From: a virus | Length of the DNA: 37,491 nucleotides | Virus record (IMG/VR): IMGVR_UViG_3300020195_000083 | Span: 1 to 37,491 of that record | Direction: 5' to 3' (one strand) | In this document: piece after piece, positions 91 to 36,204 of the stretch | Layout of the letters: every line of letters begins with the position of its first letter | Numbering within the stretch: the stretch's first letter is position 1 | Notes under the pieces: model-generated | What the model was told of the DNA's origin: nothing | Seen by the model: the letters and a program-made list of their open reading frames with translations, nothing else | Database searches by the model: none | Position numbers and translations under genes: made by a program

Positions 91-204
91 TGTCTAATGT
101 ATTGACAGTCCTAATATCAAGGGGTTACGGTACCCCCTGTCTATAATGTGTACAAATGCCCAAATATTAGACACTTACCGTTGACAGTGTTTATTCCATA
201 GACA
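91..204. promoter_or_regulatory. Cluster of four 17-base operator-like palindromes
   Basis: Four imperfect copies of a TGYCTA-N5-TAGRCA palindrome lie at 91-107 (TGTCTAATGTATTGACA), 138-154 (TGTCTATAATGTGTACA), 157-173 (TGCCCAAATATTAGACA) and 188-204 (TGTTTATTCCATAGACA). All keep six-base half-sites separated by five bases. Perfect copies of the same design occur at 1066-1082 and 4161-4177. TTGACA boxes occur at 103-108 and 181-186 and a TATAAT at 142-147, but I could not pair them into a convincing promoter at 16-18 base spacing. An inverted repeat of G and C runs lies at about 121-137. No gene is seen in 79-214. The likely role is binding of a dimeric regulator, phage or host; the protein is unknown. 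Confidence 0.5.
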
Positions 205-214
205 TAGCCCTATA

Positions 215-550
215 TCAATGTGGGTTATGATTTTCATCAAGAGTCTCCTTGTTTTGTATCAAGTCAGTAGATGATTCACGTCTAACCAATTGCAGGTGAG
301 TTTGTCGTTTAATCCTCAAAACTACCGGCGTGTAGAGCTTATATATATCAAAGTATTCATATATCAAATCAGCATCTTTGTACAGTTTTGGGTCACGAAT
401 TTCTTTCTCAAGTTGCCAGAAATCCTTATTAGACAAGTACAAAACACAGCCGTCAAAGTTTCCTCTCGTCCTACACCATTGCGCGTAGGCGTGGACTTTG
501 GCAGTTACGGAGTTCTTTATAAGCAATGGTGGTTTAGGTGCTACGCCCAT
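215..550 (-). CDS. Hypothetical protein, last gene of the leftward operon
   Basis: This 111-residue protein is not recognised. The start was chosen at 550 because a GGGGGAG ribosome binding site sits about seven bases upstream; the longer frame would need a TTG inside the preceding gene. The start comes one base after the stop of the gene ending at 552, so the two are probably translationally coupled. The sequence is soluble-looking, with aromatic and charged residues in the middle (a Lys-Asp-Phe-Trp stretch, then a Tyr-rich stretch) and a polar tail. It has no membrane segment and no cysteine-pair motif. It is the third of three leftward genes, opposite in direction to everything else in the window, so it may be an early or regulatory-region gene. 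Function unknown. Confidence 0.6.
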   Translation of the reverse strand: MGVAPKPPLLIKNSVTAKVHAYAQWCRTRGNFDGCVLYLSNKDFWQLEKEIRDPKLYKDADLIYEYFDIYKLYTPVVLRIKRQTHLQLVRRESSTDLIQNKETLDENHNPH

Positions 551-551
551 A

Positions 552-812
552 TCAATACTCCCCCACGACAACGCTAGCGTCGGCGTCTAAGATAGAGAAA
601 CTCCCCATAGTCAAACCAAGACTTCCTAAAAACTCACTGTCACGGATAGCTGCGCAGGCTTGACCGTAAGACTCAAACTCATAGAAGTAAGTGAACCCAG
701 ACCAGTCTTCAAAAGTTACTTGTACCATTTTGCGATGCCTCACTTTGTGTTTGCCATAACAAACTTGTTGTAAATCCCAGCCGTTAAAGGGTCGTGTCTC
801 CACTAGCTTCAT
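552..812 (-). CDS. Hypothetical protein, middle gene of the leftward operon
   Basis: This 86-residue protein is not recognised. Its ATG overlaps the stop of the zinc-ribbon gene by four bases (ATGA at 809-812), which implies coupled translation. It has an N-terminal basic stretch (KHKVRHRK, about residues 21-28), then an aromatic-rich segment with WSGFTYFYEFESYGQA, and a C-terminal part rich in small and hydrophobic residues. The pattern suggests a small mixed alpha/beta fold with no transmembrane helix. Neighbours on the same strand are a zinc-ribbon protein upstream and an unknown protein downstream. I give no function. Confidence 0.6.
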   Translation of the reverse strand: MKLVETRPFNGWDLQQVCYGKHKVRHRKMVQVTFEDWSGFTYFYEFESYGQACAAIRDSEFLGSLGLTMGSFSILDADASVVVGEY

Positions 813-1045
813 GACGCCTTGCCCTCGAAGTTCTGGCCATTTTCTGAACAGACCAGTGAATAGTCACCGTGAGCATAGATACGGTCATTTGTTATGTGAC
901 AGGAGTTACAGAGGCGATTGCCGTCACTTTTAAAGGTACGGTCGCAGCGCATACATTTACGTTGCTTAGTGACAATTTGACCTAGTTTGAAAACATCACG
1001 AATCTGTTCAACATCCATTTCTCCCCGCCCTCTTCTACTAGTCAT
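809..1045 (-). CDS. Small zinc-ribbon protein, first gene of the leftward operon
   Basis: This 78-residue protein has two CxxC pairs (C31/C34 and C46/C49, 11 residues apart) with basic residues nearby (KQRKCMRC, RTFKSDGNRLCNSC). That is the layout of a treble-clef or zinc-ribbon zinc site. Such small phage proteins often bind nucleic acid or act as regulators, but this is inference. The start at 1045 is preceded by a run of eight G residues at suitable spacing; the inner Met10 has a GGGGAG only two bases away, which is too close. A perfect TGCCTA-N5-TAGGCA palindrome (1066-1082) lies just upstream, so this operon is probably controlled there. It is a candidate for the protein that reads those palindromes, with no direct evidence. 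Confidence 0.65.
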   Translation of the reverse strand: MTSRRGRGEMDVEQIRDVFKLGQIVTKQRKCMRCDRTFKSDGNRLCNSCHITNDRIYAHGDYSLVCSENGQNFEGKAS

Positions 1046-1065
1046 ACCTATACCCCCCCTAAAAG

Positions 1066-1082
1066 TGCCTATTTTTTAGGCA
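1066..1082. promoter_or_regulatory. Perfect operator-like palindrome between divergent genes
   Basis: TGCCTA-TTTTT-TAGGCA is a perfect six-plus-six inverted repeat with a five-base spacer. It lies in the 98-base gap between the leftward operon (start 1045) and the rightward HNH gene (start 1144), so it can act on both. Leftward, a TATAAT-like box lies upstream on the minus strand at about 1094-1099; rightward, TATTAT follows at about 1091-1096. Neither has a good -35 box. Its design matches the site at 4161-4177, which overlaps a clear promoter. Confidence 0.5.
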
Positions 1083-1143
1083 TAATCCTGTATTATACCC
1101 TTATACACATACTCGGCGGGTACGGCAGAAACTTGAGGACAGC

Positions 1144-1521
1144 ATGGATGTTTTTAATAAAGCCTTAATGTTCAATGGGATACGGAAGGCTTTTTGCTAC
1201 AGTGACTTCCATAAGGCAATCATAGACGCAGTGAGTGAGGGGCGAGGGCGCAATAAGTGTCAGGTTTGTCAGGAGTTTTTTCCAAAGAAAGATTTGCACG
1301 TTGACCATATTGACCCAGTGGTCCCGTTGGAAGGAATCCCAGACTTAGACAATGGACTACCCGACCTCAACACATACGCAGCGAGAGTCTTTTTTAATAA
1401 GTGTCAAGCTATCTGTATTGGTTGTCATAAACTAAAGACGAGGATTGAAAATGAGCAACGTCGTAAAATTAAAGCAGCCAACAAAACAACCAAGCAAAAA
1501 ACCAGAAAAAAACAGAAATAG
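1144..1521 (+). CDS. HNH endonuclease, zinc-ribbon type
   Basis: This 125-residue protein has the HNH layout. C39 and C42 (CQVC) form the first zinc pair, VDHIDP supplies the D54-H55 catalytic pair, N85 lies in the middle, and C91/C94-H95 (CIGCHK) forms the second pair and the last H. The tail after about residue 100 is very Lys/Arg/Gln-rich. HNH proteins next to terminase genes are known to cleave DNA in a metal-dependent way and in several phages to assist the large terminase in packaging; its place 0.7 kb upstream of the large terminase fits that. A free-standing homing endonuclease is the alternative. The ATG follows a good GAGGA site. The 3' end overlaps the next gene by 71 bases. Confidence 0.85.
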   Translation: MDVFNKALMFNGIRKAFCYSDFHKAIIDAVSEGRGRNKCQVCQEFFPKKDLHVDHIDPVVPLEGIPDLDNGLPDLNTYAARVFFNKCQAICIGCHKLKTRIENEQRRKIKAANKTTKQKTRKKQK

Positions 1522-1864
1522 TGATATTTACGATATAGATTATCGGGATAAGTTATCTCTAGGTGAGAAGATTTGGTTGAACCGTGCCCTACGAGCCATT
1601 TCAATGGGGCTAGGGCCTCTTGCTCACCCGACTCCAGGTTGGCGTCATAAAAGATTTAATGAACAAAATTCACGATATAGAACTATAGAAAATCATAACA
1701 GGCGGGTATATGGACATATTGATGACACTAATGTCGATAGGATTAGGCGGTCTGATTGCACTTATTGGGAACTTGTTGCTGGCTCAACGGCAGATGACTA
1801 CCTCAGCGAGCTTGAGCTTAGCGAAAGCCGAAGAGATTCTAAAACAAGTACAGGCGAGTCATAA
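1451..1864 (+). CDS. Hypothetical basic protein between HNH gene and terminase
   Basis: This 137-residue protein is not recognised. The ATG at 1451 has a GAGG seven bases upstream; an in-frame TTG two codons earlier is less likely. The N-terminus is Lys/Gln/Pro-rich and probably disordered. Residues about 30-55 (RDKLSLGEKIWLNRALRAIS) look like a genuine helical segment, and a basic Arg/Asn-rich segment follows. The last 50 residues or so overlap another reading frame that itself looks like a real gene (1710-1982), which is unusual. Either the two genes truly overlap by 155 bases, or a frameshift has lengthened this frame. It could be a DNA-binding packaging accessory; there is no motif to prove it. 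Confidence 0.5.
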   Translation: MSNVVKLKQPTKQPSKKPEKNRNSDIYDIDYRDKLSLGEKIWLNRALRAISMGLGPLAHPTPGWRHKRFNEQNSRYRTIENHNRRVYGHIDDTNVDRIRRSDCTYWELVAGSTADDYLSELELSESRRDSKTSTGES

Positions 1865-1982
1865 TCAACTTGCCGAGACTCAGAAACGCTTAGATGAAAA
1901 AATGTTAGACCTTTATTCGCGAGTAAACTCTTATGACGTCAGCCAAAGAAGCACTAGCCCAGGCAGTAGAGCTGGCCGCTAG
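1710..1982 (+). CDS. Small membrane protein with coiled coil
   Basis: This 90-residue protein has one N-terminal membrane segment (residues about 5-25, rich in Leu, Ile and Gly) followed by a long polar helix of coiled-coil character (AKAEEILKQVQASHNQLAE onward). The ATG at 1710 follows GGCGGG. A stop codon lies eight codons upstream in this frame, so the gene cannot start much earlier. It overlaps the previous gene by 155 bases and the next by 50. The topology resembles small phage membrane-anchored proteins, including some holins and inner spanins, but its place before the terminase gives no support for lysis. Function unknown. Confidence 0.55.
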   Translation: MDILMTLMSIGLGGLIALIGNLLLAQRQMTTSASLSLAKAEEILKQVQASHNQLAETQKRLDEKMLDLYSRVNSYDVSQRSTSPGSRAGR

Positions 1983-2193
1983 TCTATTGTCAAAGACTGA
2001 AGCTAACCTAGCAGCGGGTACGCTTGACCGTGAAGCTCTGGCCGTATTTAAGACGGCTGTCGAGGCACTTGTTGACGTAAGGAAGTGCGAGTTAGCTGAG
2101 AAGTCAGGTAGTGGTGAAGAGTCCCAGCAATTATCCCATATATCAACGGAAGACTTGTTAAGGGTTGCGGGGTCTATAGAACCTCATGACTGA
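1933..2193 (+). CDS. Candidate small terminase subunit
   Basis: This 86-residue, Ala/Leu/Glu-rich protein is almost entirely helical (AKEALAQAVELAASLLSKTE, then EALAVFKTAVEALVDVRK) with a polar C-terminus. Its stop overlaps the large terminase start by eight bases, the usual place for the small, DNA-recognising terminase subunit. Small terminases diverge quickly and are often found only by position; this one is shorter than most (commonly 140-200 residues) and shows no clear helix-turn-helix. The upstream genes at 1451 or 1710 are alternatives. The call rests on context only. Confidence 0.4.
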   Translation: MTSAKEALAQAVELAASLLSKTEANLAAGTLDREALAVFKTAVEALVDVRKCELAEKSGSGEESQQLSHISTEDLLRVAGSIEPHD

Positions 2194-3595
2194 ACTAAAC
2201 CTTACGTTGCGTCAGGAGCTTTGGAGACGGGGACACCTAGCCTGGAAACTTCACGCGGCCCAAAAGTTAATCTATGAACAAGTTCAATCTGTCAAAACCC
2301 GTGAGTATGTGATTCTCGCGTCTCGGCGATTCGGTAAAAGTTACCTAGGGTGCATTATGGCCCTAGAGTTTTGTTTACAGAATCCGGGCAAACGAGTCAA
2401 CATTATTGCTCCTAATAGAAAGCACGCTACGGACATTGTCGTACCCCTCATTGATAAAATCATTAAGGATGCCCCTAAAGGCTTGGTCAAACGTACTAAA
2501 TCTGAATATAAATGGCACGTCGGCGGAGCTGACTTAGTCTTAGGTGGGTTTGATACTGCCAGCGACTCATTCCGCGGTACTGAAGGCGATTTAATTATTA
2601 TTGAGGAAAGCGGCTTTGCTGACCCCAATGATTATGAATACATCATGCGTTCTATTATCAAACCCTTGTTGCTTCACTCTAGAGGAAAATTAATTCACTT
2701 AACGACACCGCCTAGAAGTGCAGACCACCCCTTTGTATCTAACACTATACCTGAAGCTAAAGTGAACAAATCATTTTGGCAATTCACACTATATGATAAC
2801 CCGTTGCTTGATGACGAGCAGCGAGCCATGGCAGTTAAAGACTGCGGCGGGATTCACACGGATGACTTTAGACGCGAGTATATGTGCGAGATTATACGAG
2901 ACAGTAACTTTGTAGTTATTCCCTCGTTCACTCAAGCGAGACACGTTAAACCTTTTGGTATACCCGAAAGTAGATTTACCTGGACCGCCATTGATGGGGG
3001 AGGTAAGCGGGATAGGACCGTAGCTCTACTACTTATGTATGATTATGTAAGGGCTAAAATTCTCGTTGTAGACGAACGTGACTTTGCACCTAACACGACC
3101 TCTGACGTCATTACGGACTCCATTAAATCAATGGAAAAAGCGAACTTTGCTTGGTCTGAGCATGAACCGTGTAGATGGTCTGATAGCCCTGGTCAAGTCA
3201 TTGCTGACTGGTATAAACTTCATGATTTTCAAGTAATGATGCCATTCAAAGATGAAGTTGACGCGCAAATCAACATCGTGAATCTCAAGATGGCAACGGA
3301 TAAGATTGAGGTACATCCCAGGTGCGTGACCCTCATTGCTTGTCTGGAATACGGAATGTTCAACGATAAGCGTACGGACTTTATACGTACACCTACGCTA
3401 GGCCACCTTGATGCCCTAATGGCACTGGTTTACGGGGTACGCATGATGAATGACAGCAACCCTTTCCCAGAACTTCCATTGCCTGATAACTCAATGAAGA
3501 GACCGGCTCGGGCCTCACAACGTCATTGGTCAACAAGCCCTCGTGAAACTGATATCCAAACTATCAATGCTTTTAGAGCTAGGAATAAACGATGA
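2186..3595 (+). CDS. terL: Large terminase subunit (packaging ATPase-nuclease)
   Basis: This 469-residue protein has the full terminase layout. The Walker A motif is SRRFGKS (residues 46-52), the Walker B with catalytic Glu is DLIIIEE (135-141), and the coupling motif LTTPP follows near residue 174. The C-terminal RNase H-like nuclease is marked by AIDGGGKRDRT (first acidic residue), a second acidic cluster around WSDSPG, and GHLDALMAL (last Asp). It drives ATP-powered DNA translocation through the portal and cuts the concatemer. The length is typical. Its start overlaps the preceding small gene and its stop overlaps the next gene (ATGA). The packaging type (headful or fixed ends) cannot be told from the sequence alone. 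Confidence 0.95.
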   Translation: MTELNLTLRQELWRRGHLAWKLHAAQKLIYEQVQSVKTREYVILASRRFGKSYLGCIMALEFCLQNPGKRVNIIAPNRKHATDIVVPLIDKIIKDAPKGLVKRTKSEYKWHVGGADLVLGGFDTASDSFRGTEGDLIIIEESGFADPNDYEYIMRSIIKPLLLHSRGKLIHLTTPPRSADHPFVSNTIPEAKVNKSFWQFTLYDNPLLDDEQRAMAVKDCGGIHTDDFRREYMCEIIRDSNFVVIPSFTQARHVKPFGIPESRFTWTAIDGGGKRDRTVALLLMYDYVRAKILVVDERDFAPNTTSDVITDSIKSMEKANFAWSEHEPCRWSDSPGQVIADWYKLHDFQVMMPFKDEVDAQINIVNLKMATDKIEVHPRCVTLIACLEYGMFNDKRTDFIRTPTLGHLDALMALVYGVRMMNDSNPFPELPLPDNSMKRPARASQRHWSTSPRETDIQTINAFRARNKR

Positions 3596-3960
3596 AATTA
3601 TCAATTGCTAAGTTATTTGAGGTAAGTGCCATAGCAGGAACTACGGCCTATACTGAGCTTAAAACCTTCGTTGATTATACGAATACCTTAGCTGACCAAG
3701 TCGTTAGAGCCCTTAGAAATGGACTGACTTTCAGTGAAAATTTCAACTGTGTCATTAAAGATGTAGAAGTTACGCACAACATCGCGACTTCCATTGATAT
3801 AGCGGGAGACGTGGCAGGAATCTTAGTGATAGGTAGTAATGGTAAGATTATAACTGGCTTTGGTTACTCAAGAGTCAATGTGGGCTCAGTTCTAGTCACA
3901 GCTCAGATATCCACTTTGGATAAAGCTACACTTAAACTAGTTATCCTTAAGTCACTGTAA
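3592..3960 (+). CDS. Small beta-rich virion-type protein
   Basis: This 122-residue protein is translationally coupled to the large terminase by an ATGA overlap. The N-terminal half is helical (KLFEVSAIAG..., then TNTLADQVVRALRNGLTFSENFNC). The second half is a run of short beta strands (DIAGDVAGILVIGSNGKIIT and onward to a Leu/Val-rich end). The RNGLTFSENFNC stretch resembles small phage structural proteins I have seen near terminase or fibre genes, but I cannot attach a named family. It may be a head or tail accessory protein. It is the last gene before a 247-base non-coding gap. Confidence 0.6.
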   Translation: MKLSIAKLFEVSAIAGTTAYTELKTFVDYTNTLADQVVRALRNGLTFSENFNCVIKDVEVTHNIATSIDIAGDVAGILVIGSNGKIITGFGYSRVNVGSVLVTAQISTLDKATLKLVILKSL

Positions 3961-4141
3961 TCTGTATCATTGTATTGCGACAATTTATTGGAGCTAATTA
4001 TAATATCTATTTTTCATGTTGTCATTTATTGGGTTGAGTTTAACGAAACCCTTGTCTCTTGATCGATTATACAAATCTCACTTTTACGTGTCAAGTAAAA
4101 TACTACCAACGACTAAAAATAGTTCTAACTCACAATAAGTG

Positions 4142-4177
4142 TTTACATTTTGTACAACAATGCCTAAAATATAGGCA
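4142..4177 (+). promoter_or_regulatory. Morphogenesis promoter with operator over the -10 box
   Basis: The -35 box TTTACA (4142-4147), a 17-base spacer and the -10 box TAAAAT (4165-4170) form a good sigma70-type promoter. The -10 lies inside the perfect palindrome TGCCTAAAATATAGGCA (4161-4177), so a protein bound there would block RNA polymerase. The promoter drives the scaffold-capsid genes starting at 4208. It sits in the non-coding gap 3961-4207, the rest of which is AT-rich with only a weak ATTGT/ACAAT hairpin near 3970; I see nothing else there. The palindrome belongs to the same set as the sites at 91-204 and 1066-1082. Confidence 0.65.
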
Positions 4178-4207: not shown

Positions 4208-5080
4208 ATGGAAAACGATGTTTCAGGTGTTGGCGAATCTACTGGCGGTGATGAATCACCTACCGAATCCGCAGCTCCACAGTCCCCGGTACAAGACTAT
4301 AAAAGTACCAAGCATAAGGTGAAGATTGACGGCAGTGAACAGGATGTAGATTACGAAGAACTGCTCGCTGGTTACCAGACCCGTGCCTCTTCATCTAAGA
4401 AGTTTGAGGAAGCTAACCGATTGCAGAAACAACTGCAAGAGTTTGTTGCCAGTGCCAAACAAGACCCCCGACGTTTCTTCGAAGCTATCGGTATGGACCC
4501 CTTGGAGTGGGCTAAACAACAGACAATTGAGCGTCTCAAATACGAGTCACTGTCTGACGAGGAACGTGAACGTCTAGAGTTGAAGCAAGAAAAAGAAAGA
4601 CTTCAAAAAGAACTCGAAACTGAGCGTAAAACCAAAACAGAACGTGAACGACAAGCGCTAGAGGAACAAGCGGAAAGTGAAATAGCTTCCGATATCCAAG
4701 GCGCTCTACAAAAAGCAGGTGTTAAGCCCACTGCGAGAGCCATAGCTAGGATGGCTGAAGTAATGATGCGGCATCTGGACAAGGACACGGGTGATTTAAA
4801 GGTAAAGGCTAGCGATGCGTTGAAACGATTTAAGTCTGAAATTTCTGATGACGTCACTGACTATCTCAGCAATCTAGAAGGCGAAAGTTTGTTGAAAGCT
4901 TTGCCAGAGTCGGTGCTGAAAAAGATTAACCAAGCTCTCTTGTCGAAGAATCAGACTCCCTTGCAACAAAGGACAATGCAGGCCGCGACAGGCAAACAGC
5001 AACCCTCACAGTCAAAAGGTAGTCCCAAGGCCCAAAACATCGATGAACTGTTTAACTCAATAGGAAGTAAATTTAAATGA
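4208..5080 (+). CDS. Capsid scaffolding protein
   Basis: This 290-residue, highly charged protein has a disordered acidic N-terminus, then HKVKIDGSEQDVDYEELLAGYQ (about residues 37-58, written here only as a landmark: KVKIDG then EELLAGYQ), a pattern common in phage scaffold or head-assembly proteins. A long Glu/Lys/Arg/Gln coiled coil occupies about residues 110-160, and the C-terminus is basic and helical. It lies directly upstream of the capsid genes. Scaffold proteins guide coat assembly and leave before DNA fills the head. The ATG follows ACGGAGTG and is the first gene after the promoter at 4142. Its stop overlaps the next start (ATGA). Confidence 0.82.
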   Translation: MENDVSGVGESTGGDESPTESAAPQSPVQDYKSTKHKVKIDGSEQDVDYEELLAGYQTRASSSKKFEEANRLQKQLQEFVASAKQDPRRFFEAIGMDPLEWAKQQTIERLKYESLSDEERERLELKQEKERLQKELETERKTKTERERQALEEQAESEIASDIQGALQKAGVKPTARAIARMAEVMMRHLDKDTGDLKVKASDALKRFKSEISDDVTDYLSNLEGESLLKALPESVLKKINQALLSKNQTPLQQRTMQAATGKQQPSQSKGSPKAQNIDELFNSIGSKFK

Positions 5081-5587: not shown

Positions 5588-6904
5588 ATGTCACAAGTAT
5601 CTAACTCGTCTGCAATTGATATCTTTAAAAAAGTCTATGGCGGTACACGCGATATTCGTCCTATGGACTCTCGCTTGTCGCAAATGTTCCCATTTAGTCA
5701 ACGCGAGAAGGTCGGCGATAGCTACGTTGAAGCTGTAATCTTGACTCACGAAACTGGTCTTACTTTGGCCGGTGAAGCTGACGATGCATTTACAATCAAT
5801 GAGGCAATTGCAGGGGCTGTAAAACAAAGCCGTGTTAAAGCTTCGCAATCCGTACTTAAATCTGTAATCCCTTGGGCTACTATCTCTCGCTCTGCTGGAG
5901 CCGGTGAAAAAGCGTTCTTTGAAGCTACCAAGCACATCGTTAAAAACAACATGAAGTCCCATAACAAAATCTTGGAAGTGTTGCGCCTTTATGGACAATC
6001 CGAAAAAGGTCTTGGATTGGTTGGATTCGCTGGAACATACCGTGGAGTTTCCTTTTCCTCGTTTGGAACTGGAACTGTAGGCGGAGTTGCGTTTACAAAC
6101 TCAACTAACACTGCTGCTAAGAAAATCTTGGTTGCTCAAGGACAATTTGCACCTGGAATTTGGGTTGGAATGGAAGGAATTGTTGTAAAACAAGTACTTA
6201 TCTCTTCCGGCGCAGTAGTAGGGTCTGGTAAACTGGTTTCCGTTGACTCTGAGAACGGTATTCTTGAGGTTGACTTTACCCCCGTTGCTGCTACAGCTGC
6301 TGGTTCGCATAAGTTGGTTTGGGACGGCATGGAAAGCTCTAAAGAAGCTCTCGGTGTTGAAGCAATCTTGCGTAAAGACGGCTCATTGTTTGAAATTAAC
6401 AACTCTGTCTATGCCCTTTTCAAGGGTACACGCCACGATAACGCTTCTAAAAAGCTCAAACTTGAGAACGTTGAGAACATCGTAGCTAAAGCCGTTAACC
6501 GCGGTGGTCTCGAAGGCGATACAACTTTGCTTGTTTCACCTCTCTGCCTTGCTTCTATCGTAAAAGATGAAGCTGCTTTCCGTAAGTATGACGCTAGCTA
6601 TGAATCCAACGCTAAAAACGGCTTTGAAGCTGTTCAGTTCTTCACTCCAGCCGGTAAAGTGACTATCGAATCACACCGCTGTGTTAAAGAAGGCGACGCT
6701 TTCTTGCTCAAATCTGACACTTGGATTCGCTCCGGGTCTGCTGACTGCTCCATGAGCGTTCCTGGCATGGACCAAGAGTTGATTCAACAGCTCCCAAGCC
6801 AAGCTGGTTACCAATTTGCAACGTATGCTGACCAATTCTTGTTGTGTCATGCTCCTGCGCAAAACGTAATGATTTCTGGCATCGACGTCGAGTCCTCAAC
6901 CTAA
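5588..6904 (+). CDS. Major capsid protein
   Basis: This 438-residue protein follows the scaffold gene, the normal order for the coat. An N-terminal helical arm is followed by GDSYVEAVILTHETGLTLAG, a long helix (about residues 100-135), and a beta-rich insertion (about 190-245) that could be an accessory domain. The C-terminal part has LLVSPLCLASIVKD and the NGFEAVQFFTPAGKVTIESH segment typical of HK97-fold coats near the P-domain and axial regions. Narrow codon use (GCT, GGA/GGT, AAC, TTG) sets it apart from most neighbours and agrees with very high expression. The start has AAGGG at suitable spacing. The family is inferred from context and layout, not from a motif unique to it. Confidence 0.85.
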   Translation: MSQVSNSSAIDIFKKVYGGTRDIRPMDSRLSQMFPFSQREKVGDSYVEAVILTHETGLTLAGEADDAFTINEAIAGAVKQSRVKASQSVLKSVIPWATISRSAGAGEKAFFEATKHIVKNNMKSHNKILEVLRLYGQSEKGLGLVGFAGTYRGVSFSSFGTGTVGGVAFTNSTNTAAKKILVAQGQFAPGIWVGMEGIVVKQVLISSGAVVGSGKLVSVDSENGILEVDFTPVAATAAGSHKLVWDGMESSKEALGVEAILRKDGSLFEINNSVYALFKGTRHDNASKKLKLENVENIVAKAVNRGGLEGDTTLLVSPLCLASIVKDEAAFRKYDASYESNAKNGFEAVQFFTPAGKVTIESHRCVKEGDAFLLKSDTWIRSGSADCSMSVPGMDQELIQQLPSQAGYQFATYADQFLLCHAPAQNVMISGIDVESST

Positions 6905-33608: not shown

Positions 33609-33763
33609 TGACACAGGAAGATTTTGACAAGGTACTCTTGCATATCAAACGTAAACTAGAACTCGACACTGCTGCAACCCCTAGAGCTGACCTGAAGGCT
33701 TATTTGCTCGGCTATATTGATGGGGTGTTGGGGAGCGTCGAGTATGAGGAAAAGAAAAAATGA
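33608..33763 (+). CDS. Small hypothetical protein
   Basis: This 51-residue, helical, charged protein (EDFDKVLLHIKRKLELDTAA is a landmark) shares its first base with the lipoprotein stop (TGATG) and overlaps the next start (ATGA). The tight coupling on both sides supports a real gene. A Leu-Gly-Tyr-rich helix (AYLLGYIDGVLGSVEYEE) ends the protein. Function unknown. Confidence 0.6.
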   Translation: MTQEDFDKVLLHIKRKLELDTAATPRADLKAYLLGYIDGVLGSVEYEEKKK

Positions 33764-34077
33764 GCGGCGGAGCTAAACATGACAACGGTAAACCCCCATT
33801 GACTATGATTCCTCGGGTAGCAATGGAAGCCGAGGCACGAGTGTTTTCTTTCGGCGCTAAAAAGTATTCCAAACATAATTTTACCAAGGGGTTCGATTAC
33901 TCCCGATTACTTGACGCAGCCATGAGACATATTACCGCTTATGCTTGGGGAGAAGATGCCGATATAGAAAGTGGTGAGAGTCACCTAGCCCATGCCCGTT
34001 GCTGCCTCGCAATGCTTATGCAGAATATTGAAGACAACGTGGGCCTCGATGACCGTTATAAAGGGGTTAAAAAATGA
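33760..34077 (+). CDS. dATP/dGTP pyrophosphohydrolase-like protein (MazG-like fold)
   Basis: This 105-residue protein matches the dATP/dGTP diphosphohydrolase family (DUF5664) in pattern: GGAKHDNGKPPLTMIP, then FSFGAKKYSKHNF, RLLDAAMRHITA, GEDADIESGESHLAHARCC, and AMLMQNIED. The conserved acids in ESGESHLAHA bind metal in MazG-type enzymes. It would hydrolyse dNTPs, changing the nucleotide pool. Related enzymes assist the Z-base pathway, but no purZ is seen here. It is coupled on both sides (ATGA). Confidence 0.78.
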   Translation: MSGGAKHDNGKPPLTMIPRVAMEAEARVFSFGAKKYSKHNFTKGFDYSRLLDAAMRHITAYAWGEDADIESGESHLAHARCCLAMLMQNIEDNVGLDDRYKGVKK

Positions 34078-34754: not shown

Positions 34755-34875
34755 CCTTACAAACCCCTTACCGCCTCATTTTATAGCACCGCGCCAAATA
34801 TGAACAACTTGACATCTTGCCTTACAAACCCCATTGATTCTGACGGGGTTTAACAGGGGATGCCTTACAAACCCC
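34755..34875 (+). repeat. Three direct repeats of CCTTACAAACCCC
   Basis: Exact 13-base copies lie at 34755-34767, 34820-34832 and 34863-34875; the last two extend to TGCCTTACAAACCCCAT. An imperfect inverted copy (GGGGTTTAACAGG) is at 34845-34857, able to pair with copy two as a hairpin. TTGACA lies at 34809-34814 next to copy two, but the -10 is poor. The cluster is just upstream of the gene at 34898. Iterons of an origin or operators of the downstream gene both fit. Confidence 0.6.
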
Positions 34876-34897
34876 ATCACACCTTATGGGAGAATCT

Positions 34898-35395
34898 ATG
34901 GCAAAGCGTCAAAAGAAGTATGTAACTCATAACTCATTGTCATTAAAACTATACAGAGAAGGGTTCCGGGGAACCGAACACCTTGCTACCACGTTGTTAA
35001 ATATGCACTTTGAACTTGGTGGGATCTTGGGAAGTCGACAATATTACGCCTCAAGCCTTGAAACTCCGGGACAATCGTATACCGTATGGATTGAACGACT
35101 TATTGACAACGGCTGGCTTGTCCGTAAGGCAGATATAAGCACTAAGCAGGACTATATTAAATACCAGCCAGGAGTAAAATTAATGCCTTATATTAATAAA
35201 GAAAAAAGCGCTAAAGAAGAGATTGCATCAGTCCGCGAGTTACACAATATGAAGAATCAGATTATGGAATCCGTGGACAGTCGCCTAACCCGCATTGAGG
35301 AAACCTTGGGCAATATGTACAGCGCAATCGGCCTCGGTAAAATTGACCCACCTGACTTTCCTAAGCTTAAACAACACCTTAGACTCGTCAAGTAA
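34898..35395 (+). CDS. Hypothetical DNA-binding-type protein after repeats
   Basis: This 165-residue protein has a basic N-terminus (KRQKKYVTHNSLSLKLYREG) and a region TLLNMHFELGGILGSRQYYA to YTVWIERLIDNGWLVRK that looks like a winged-helix layout (helices, then a beta wing around WLVRKADIS). A C-terminal coiled coil follows (MKNQIMESVDSRLTRIEETLG). It is the first gene after the repeats at 34755-34875, so it may be a regulator or replication initiator binding them. Start chosen at 34898 (GGGAG site) over 34886. No family match claimed. Confidence 0.55.
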   Translation: MAKRQKKYVTHNSLSLKLYREGFRGTEHLATTLLNMHFELGGILGSRQYYASSLETPGQSYTVWIERLIDNGWLVRKADISTKQDYIKYQPGVKLMPYINKEKSAKEEIASVRELHNMKNQIMESVDSRLTRIEETLGNMYSAIGLGKIDPPDFPKLKQHLRLVK

Positions 35396-35940: not shown

Positions 35941-36204
35941 ATGCAACGAATAAAGTATGACTTGTGCCTAGAAGTTATACAGTATGACGCTAAGGACGGA
36001 AGCCAGCGGTTGTCAGTGACCGTGTCAGATAGACGGCAAGGGTGGAATAAAGCCCAGTGTACCGTTGTCCTAGTTGAAGGTACGACGGTTGAAGAGTGTA
36101 TCAAAGAAGACGACTTGATTCAACGGGCGTTTGAGACTTACTTAAAAGCAACGGCGGGGGTCGAGAATGTATCACAGCCAGATTCCTACGATTTACACGA
36201 TTGA
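35941..36204 (+). CDS. Hypothetical protein
   Basis: This 87-residue protein starts at 35941 with AAGGGG before it; an in-frame ATG five codons earlier has no site. It has a beta-like first half (QRIKYDLCLEVIQYDAKDG, RLSVTVSDRR, CTVVLVEGTT) and a helical C-terminus (DLIQRAFETYLKATAG). The pattern resembles a small compact alpha/beta protein. It overlaps the next gene by 38 bases. Unknown function. Confidence 0.55.
   Translation: MQRIKYDLCLEVIQYDAKDGSQRLSVTVSDRRQGWNKAQCTVVLVEGTTVEECIKEDDLIQRAFETYLKATAGVENVSQPDSYDLHD

Follow-up and report, generated by a model that had tools for sequence, protein, structure and literature searches.

What reads the 17-base palindromes that stand between the genes of an environmental tailed phage, two of them beside its terminase and capsid genes? 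The DNA analysed here, called the window, is the complete IMG/VR record IMGVR_UViG_3300020195_000083; it has 37,491 bases, is classed as linear and carries genes for a portal, a terminase and a family-A-type DNA polymerase. An initial annotation had described six palindromes in it, TGYCTA-N5-TAGRCA, as a network read by one dimeric regulator. We found that the palindromes are very probably sites for some dimeric regulator, that the six differ among themselves (two are strict, four are weaker and one of these, 138–154, is doubtful), and that the motif extends far beyond the window phage.

Strict and weak sites around the terminase and capsid operons

All six palindromes are present and all are intergenic, in a window with a non-coding share of 5.4%. 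They are listed below without strand, together with a possible partner and a promoter; scores are from a bacterial matrix described in the next section.

91–107, weak site TGTCTAATGTATTGACA, inside a 21-base-pair (bp) imperfect palindrome, ACTGTC...GACAGT; score 12.2
138–154, doubtful site TGTCTATAATGTGTACA; score only 3.3
157–173, site TGCCCAAATATTAGACA, its centre 19 bp from that of the 138 site; score 17.7
188–204, site TGTTTATTCCATAGACA, its centre 31 bp from that of the 157 site; score 13.2
1066–1082, strict site TGCCTATTTTTTAGGCA, in the gap that separates the HNH-terminase operon from the divergent leftward operon (809–1045 first); score 25.6, the highest in the window
4161–4177, strict site TGCCTAAAATATAGGCA, exactly on the −10 element of the scaffold-capsid promoter; score 25.2
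4140–4156, possible weak partner TGTTTACATTTTGTACA over the −35 element, its centre 21 bp upstream of that of the 4161 site; rank 7 with a matrix built from the six sites, bacterial score only 2.9
4142–4170, plus strand, sigma-70-like promoter TTTACA-N17-TAAAAT before the scaffold and capsid genes; overlap with the 4161 site only marginal by shuffling (p = 0.046)

Only the sites at 1066 and 4161 match TGYCTA-N5-TAGRCA exactly; those at 91, 157 and 188 have one mismatch each and the 138 site has two. Both exact sites are perfect TGCCTA-W5-TAGGCA palindromes, and the two agree at 16 of 17 bases once the 1066 site is read on its reverse strand. These are the two occurrences of the strict form TGCYTA-W5-TARGCA in the window, compared with 0.003 in shuffled sequence. 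The loose consensus is weak evidence by itself, its excess being modest: allowing one mismatch gave six matches compared with 0.3 in shuffles (one of the six is intragenic, at 35965–35981, and they do not include the 138 site), and allowing two gave ten compared with 4.5. For a consensus picked after the sites had been seen, TGTCTA-N5-TAGACA, the left-end cluster holds five sites with at most two mismatches in 214 bp, compared with a maximum of two per 214 bp in 200 shuffles. Besides the 4140 partner, the six-site matrix found another weak site at 73–89. The proposed six-site network holds only in part.

The strict sites stand at the openings of two operons, HNH-terminase and scaffold-capsid. 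The 1066 site lies 1.1 kb before the gene for the terminase large subunit (terL), opening its operon, and the 4161 site lies 566 bp past terL. The idea of intergenic dimeric-regulator sites tied to the terminase and capsid region is supported. The sites had also been described as flanking the leftward operon. Only the 1066 site is upstream of that operon; the four sites at 91–204 are downstream of the leftward genes, past their 3′ end, and not at their promoter. The genes concerned are the following.

809–1045, minus strand, zinc-ribbon/HNH-like protein of 78 amino acids, first gene of the leftward operon; weak PHROG matches
1144–1521, plus strand, HNH endonuclease, first gene of the rightward operon leading to the terminase; PF01844 above the cut-off
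2186–3595, plus strand, terminase large subunit, with strict sites on both sides; phrog_2, 1.7e-34
4208–5080, plus strand, probable scaffold protein, first gene past the 4161 site; assigned by position and synteny in relatives
5588–6904, plus strand, major capsid protein, assigned by position and synteny; 42% identity to a Silvanigrella phage

The best sigma-70 matches of the window are on the minus strand, TTGACA-N17-TATAAT at 4094–4066 (12/12) and, second, ATGACA-N17-TATAAT at 4025–3997 (11/12). Both face left, antisense to the gene at 3592 and to the terminase. An inverted repeat, TTTTAC-N7-GTAAAA at 4081–4100, lies on the −35 element of the perfect leftward promoter and is possibly a second kind of operator.

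The motif in other viruses and at bacterial nitrogen genes

Twenty viral stretches, from phages that differ greatly, have the exact 17-mer of the 4161 site, mostly between genes, and several of these carry more copies, for example two or three in tandem between terminase and portal (L003, L007 and L014). Of 20 single-site records, four lie near a contig end, two of them closely alike. At least 120 viral stretches matched the tandem pattern TGCCTA-N5-TARRCA-N0-30-TGYYTA-N5-TARRCA; the control, a reversed palindrome of the same composition, matched none. Among the matches listed, the viral stretches form 41 DNA clusters with G+C contents of 0.34–0.65, the spacer is almost always A/T (mainly AAAAA or TTTTT), a centre spacing of 19–20 bp is favoured and TGT halves account for about 1% in strict arrays. 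The window shares the strict motif with these arrays, but its two strict copies are single, with no tandem copy at 19–20 bp and only the weak 4140 partner at 21 bp. The strict motif was usually restricted to one locus in 22 longer viral records. Genes that often lie beside the arrays encode large or small terminase subunits from many unrelated families, HNH endonucleases or portal proteins, and terminases are commoner there than among other genes sampled from the same contigs.

No sites were found near the terminase in named relatives of the phages with arrays (Pelagibacter HTVC027P/023P, 023Pt_psg01, DSL-LC04 and Manatee Spring). A Blast search of one array against named phages and plasmids gave no match, with low-complexity masking possible, and the open-access literature searched held no mention of these sequences and nothing on phage control by NtrC. 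In viral contigs, runs at L154:1968–2124 and L158:5135–5227 have five to seven operator copies, mostly in exact 19-bp steps, close to terminase genes, and a viral record of 48.7 kb (G043) has about 90 bases with two operator copies, inverted at both ends (L151/L115). Five viral stretches had tandem sites of the TGTCTA type; four came from high-GC isolate records, and in three of the four a similar gene follows. In the high-GC isolate records (L293, L294, L295 and L297), TGTCTA-N5-TAGACA pairs stand about 45 bp apart, and a similar small gene (MTDWEKQL...) follows several of them.

In bacteria and archaea, searched in one genome per species across 84,980 species, the tandem pattern gave only 45 stretches. 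Many of these loci lie directly upstream of ntrBC, glnK-amtB, amtB or nirB (contexts L052–L093), as identified by reading translations; in Sphingopyxis, the motif stands at a glnK-like locus. A strong sigma-54 promoter lies within 250 bp at 9 of the 45 loci, compared with about 0.01 expected per 500 bases. As in the window, bacterial sites mix TGCCTA, TGTTTA and TGTCTA halves (L086, L061, L077 and L090). At L086:956–1085, mixed sites and a strong sigma-54 promoter lie between enhancer-binding-protein-like and hydrogenase-like genes. The gene contexts and sigma-54 promoters of the bacterial loci are the pattern of NtrC sites.

We scored the window with a matrix made from 31 bacterial nitrogen-regulon (NtrC-type) sites. 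The top five positions were the sites at 1066, 4161, 157, 188 and 91, in that order, and the next scored 8.4. These five reach a score of at least 12, compared with 0.27 positions in shuffles (at most 3 in 300 shuffles) and 0.08 per 37.5 kb in relatives.

Where the initial annotation saw no tie to a known repressor, the motif shares its length and its TGC...GCA frame with the NtrC box, and nitrogen-regulation genes are among the places where it recurs. The Escherichia coli (enteric) NtrC box, TGCACCAnnnTGGTGCA, is likewise a 17-bp palindrome, often paired, whose frame is matched by the 1066 and 4161 sites (PMC8743547); the TGCCTA form precedes ntrBC, glnK-amtB and nirB in bacteria. In Caulobacter, NtrC lacks the GAFTGA motif (sigma-54 loop) and acts on sigma-70 promoters, its motif is Fis-related and a mobile element contains 9 of its 51 sites (PMC10274813). 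The window resembles that regulon in its Fis-related motif, sigma-70 promoters and many sites in a mobile element, but in the text consulted no phage late operon is described and the Caulobacter motif is not spelled out letter by letter.

A proposed host regulator and its rivals

As the binder we tentatively favour, short of calling it probable, a Fis/NtrC-type (HTH_8) regulator that acts as a dimer and is supplied by the host; that it is NtrC itself is a narrower and rather less likely proposal. It may be a host protein, and not a repressor made by the phage, that reads these sites. A host factor fits because the motif is common to unrelated phages that have no common gene, and because it is absent from relatives of the window phage. 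No protein family was common to all site-bearing records, and neither the window nor the 24 other records with sites that were scanned encode an HTH_8 (Fis/NtrC-type) protein above the cut-off. The E. coli Fis site, GNTYAWWWWWTRANC, has a similar 15-bp core with an A/T centre and G...C edges, but C/G often stands in the strict motif where Fis favours T/A, and the motif is much less degenerate.

Several results weigh against a host NtrC-type binder. The half-site is TGCCTA and not the TGCACC of the enteric box, its inner letters being CTA instead of ACC. The window differs from NtrC-type enhancer sites in having no sigma-54 −24/−12 promoter downstream (six weak matches in the window compared with 6.7 in shuffles), and such promoters are not enriched near viral arrays (5/120 among the matches listed). 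Overlap with sigma-70-like promoters is not enriched across viral arrays. The strict motif is rare in the bacterial chromosomes concerned, with one to four copies per genome, and many bacterial pairs are 28–44 bp apart, whereas viral arrays favour 19–20 bp and TTTTT/AAAAA spacers. Because the bacterial loci were fetched by a pattern derived from the window, the comparison is only partly independent, and the core of the matrix is not independent; the neighbouring genes and sigma-54 promoters of those loci do not depend on that pattern.

The main rival is a phage-encoded repressor or activator, unrecognised or beyond the truncated left end, that would bind all six sites and time the late genes through an operator network. 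We regard this as possible, if somewhat unlikely. The four left sites, spaced 47, 19 and 31 bp apart, resemble a multi-operator array, many small window proteins have no family, and genes left of the window may be missing because the left end of this linear contig is a 78-base perfect palindrome. Clustered 17-bp dimer sites, one of them over a promoter element, recall the OR/OL operators of lambda, and several intergenic repressor sites across one genome recall the stoperators of mycobacteriophage L5. However, no recognisable repressor and no cI/cro-like pair was found among the window proteins scanned, the strict motif is common to unrelated phages with no gene in common, and the sites are missing from relatives that have the same head genes. 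L5 stoperators, unlike the few palindromic window sites, are asymmetric. Binding by either of the two proteins first suggested is not supported. The zinc-ribbon protein (809–1045) has only weak HNH-type matches, and the winged-helix-like protein (34886–35395) matches no family and adjoins a different repeat of its own, three copies of CCTTACAAACCCC; single-sequence AlphaFold models of the two were unusable, with predicted local distance difference test (pLDDT) values of 45 and 41.

A packaging role, in which the strict sites mark a cos/pac-like region bound by the terminase or by a host bending protein (such as IHF, which is used in lambda cosB) and regulation is secondary, seems improbable to us. 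The frequent terminase and HNH neighbours of the viral arrays agree with it, as do the two strict window sites that bracket the HNH-terminase segment, but the terminase families beside the arrays are unrelated, so that a single terminase specificity is improbable, contig ends show no enrichment of arrays (p = 0.76), and the window sites are single, with the 4161 site on a promoter. The sites may instead be split, the four on the left forming a separate and partly accidental set and only 1066 and 4161 being functional, a proposal compatible with any binder, to which we assign a limited chance. The low bacterial-matrix scores of the 138 and 91 sites and the scarcity of TGT halves in strict viral arrays suggest such a split; the density of the left cluster, never reached by shuffles, and the tolerance of TGTCTA halves in bacterial sites argue against it. 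That the sites are RNA hairpins or terminators is highly improbable. The 4161 palindrome is listed as terminator-like on the minus strand, but the remaining sites are not listed as terminators, the motif stands in both orientations to the neighbouring gene across viruses, and its A/T spacer and helical spacing suit a DNA-bound dimer.

If a host NtrC-like dimer is the reader, it would bind 1066 and 4161 directly. From the position of the 4161 site on the −10 element, we infer repression of the capsid promoter: a dimer there would cover this element and repress late transcription in step with the nitrogen state of the host. Alternatively, its effect could be modulation, as by NtrC variants that act on sigma-70 promoters. 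The weaker cluster at 91–204 could be a cooperative array for whatever adjoins beyond the truncated left end. More broadly, many unrelated phages could carry a conserved tandem operator for a host Fis/NtrC-family regulator by their packaging and late genes, so that host nitrogen status gates late transcription or packaging, with the lineage of the window having acquired sites that its relatives did not; we consider this general scheme unlikely. If a host nitrogen regulator does read phage late promoters, phage output in nitrogen-poor waters would depend directly on nutrient state, and a single DNA motif would tie many uncultured phages to a testable regulator. Even without NtrC, an operator common to unrelated phages by their terminase genes points to one factor used convergently.

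The window phage and its relatives

Relatives were gathered by two capsid-alignment scans and one portal-alignment scan, with capsid identity of up to 53%. The nearest named relative is a Silvanigrella aquatica phage (CP017838), with 42% identity in the capsid, 37% in the portal and 36% in the terminase; head-gene order is kept, and replication genes differ. No DNA-level match of the window to known phages was found, and the terminase used as a probe found no close relatives. The order of terminase, 3592 gene, scaffold and capsid is kept in more than 20 relatives. Among the relatives available for comparison, all of them distant, exact sites were absent from all 38 viral loci with the same capsid gene (at most 53% identity), palindromes at the corresponding position formed no consistent family, and the Silvanigrella phage has no sites. 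The sites therefore appear to belong to the lineage of the window phage and not to its family.

The palindrome at bases 1–78 of the window is loop-free (39+39) and may be a DNA-end fold-back, an assembly artefact or a hairpin end; the real sequence probably starts near base 40. Its length of 78 equals k+1 for an assembly graph with k=77. At 33760–34077 lies a protein of the dATP/dGTP diphosphohydrolase N-terminal family (PF18909, 7e-29), a type known from some phages with modified nucleotide pools. The three exact copies of CCTTACAAACCCC, at 34755–34875, lie directly before the 169-amino-acid gene at 34886, and by analogy they resemble the iterons of a replication initiator or autoregulator.

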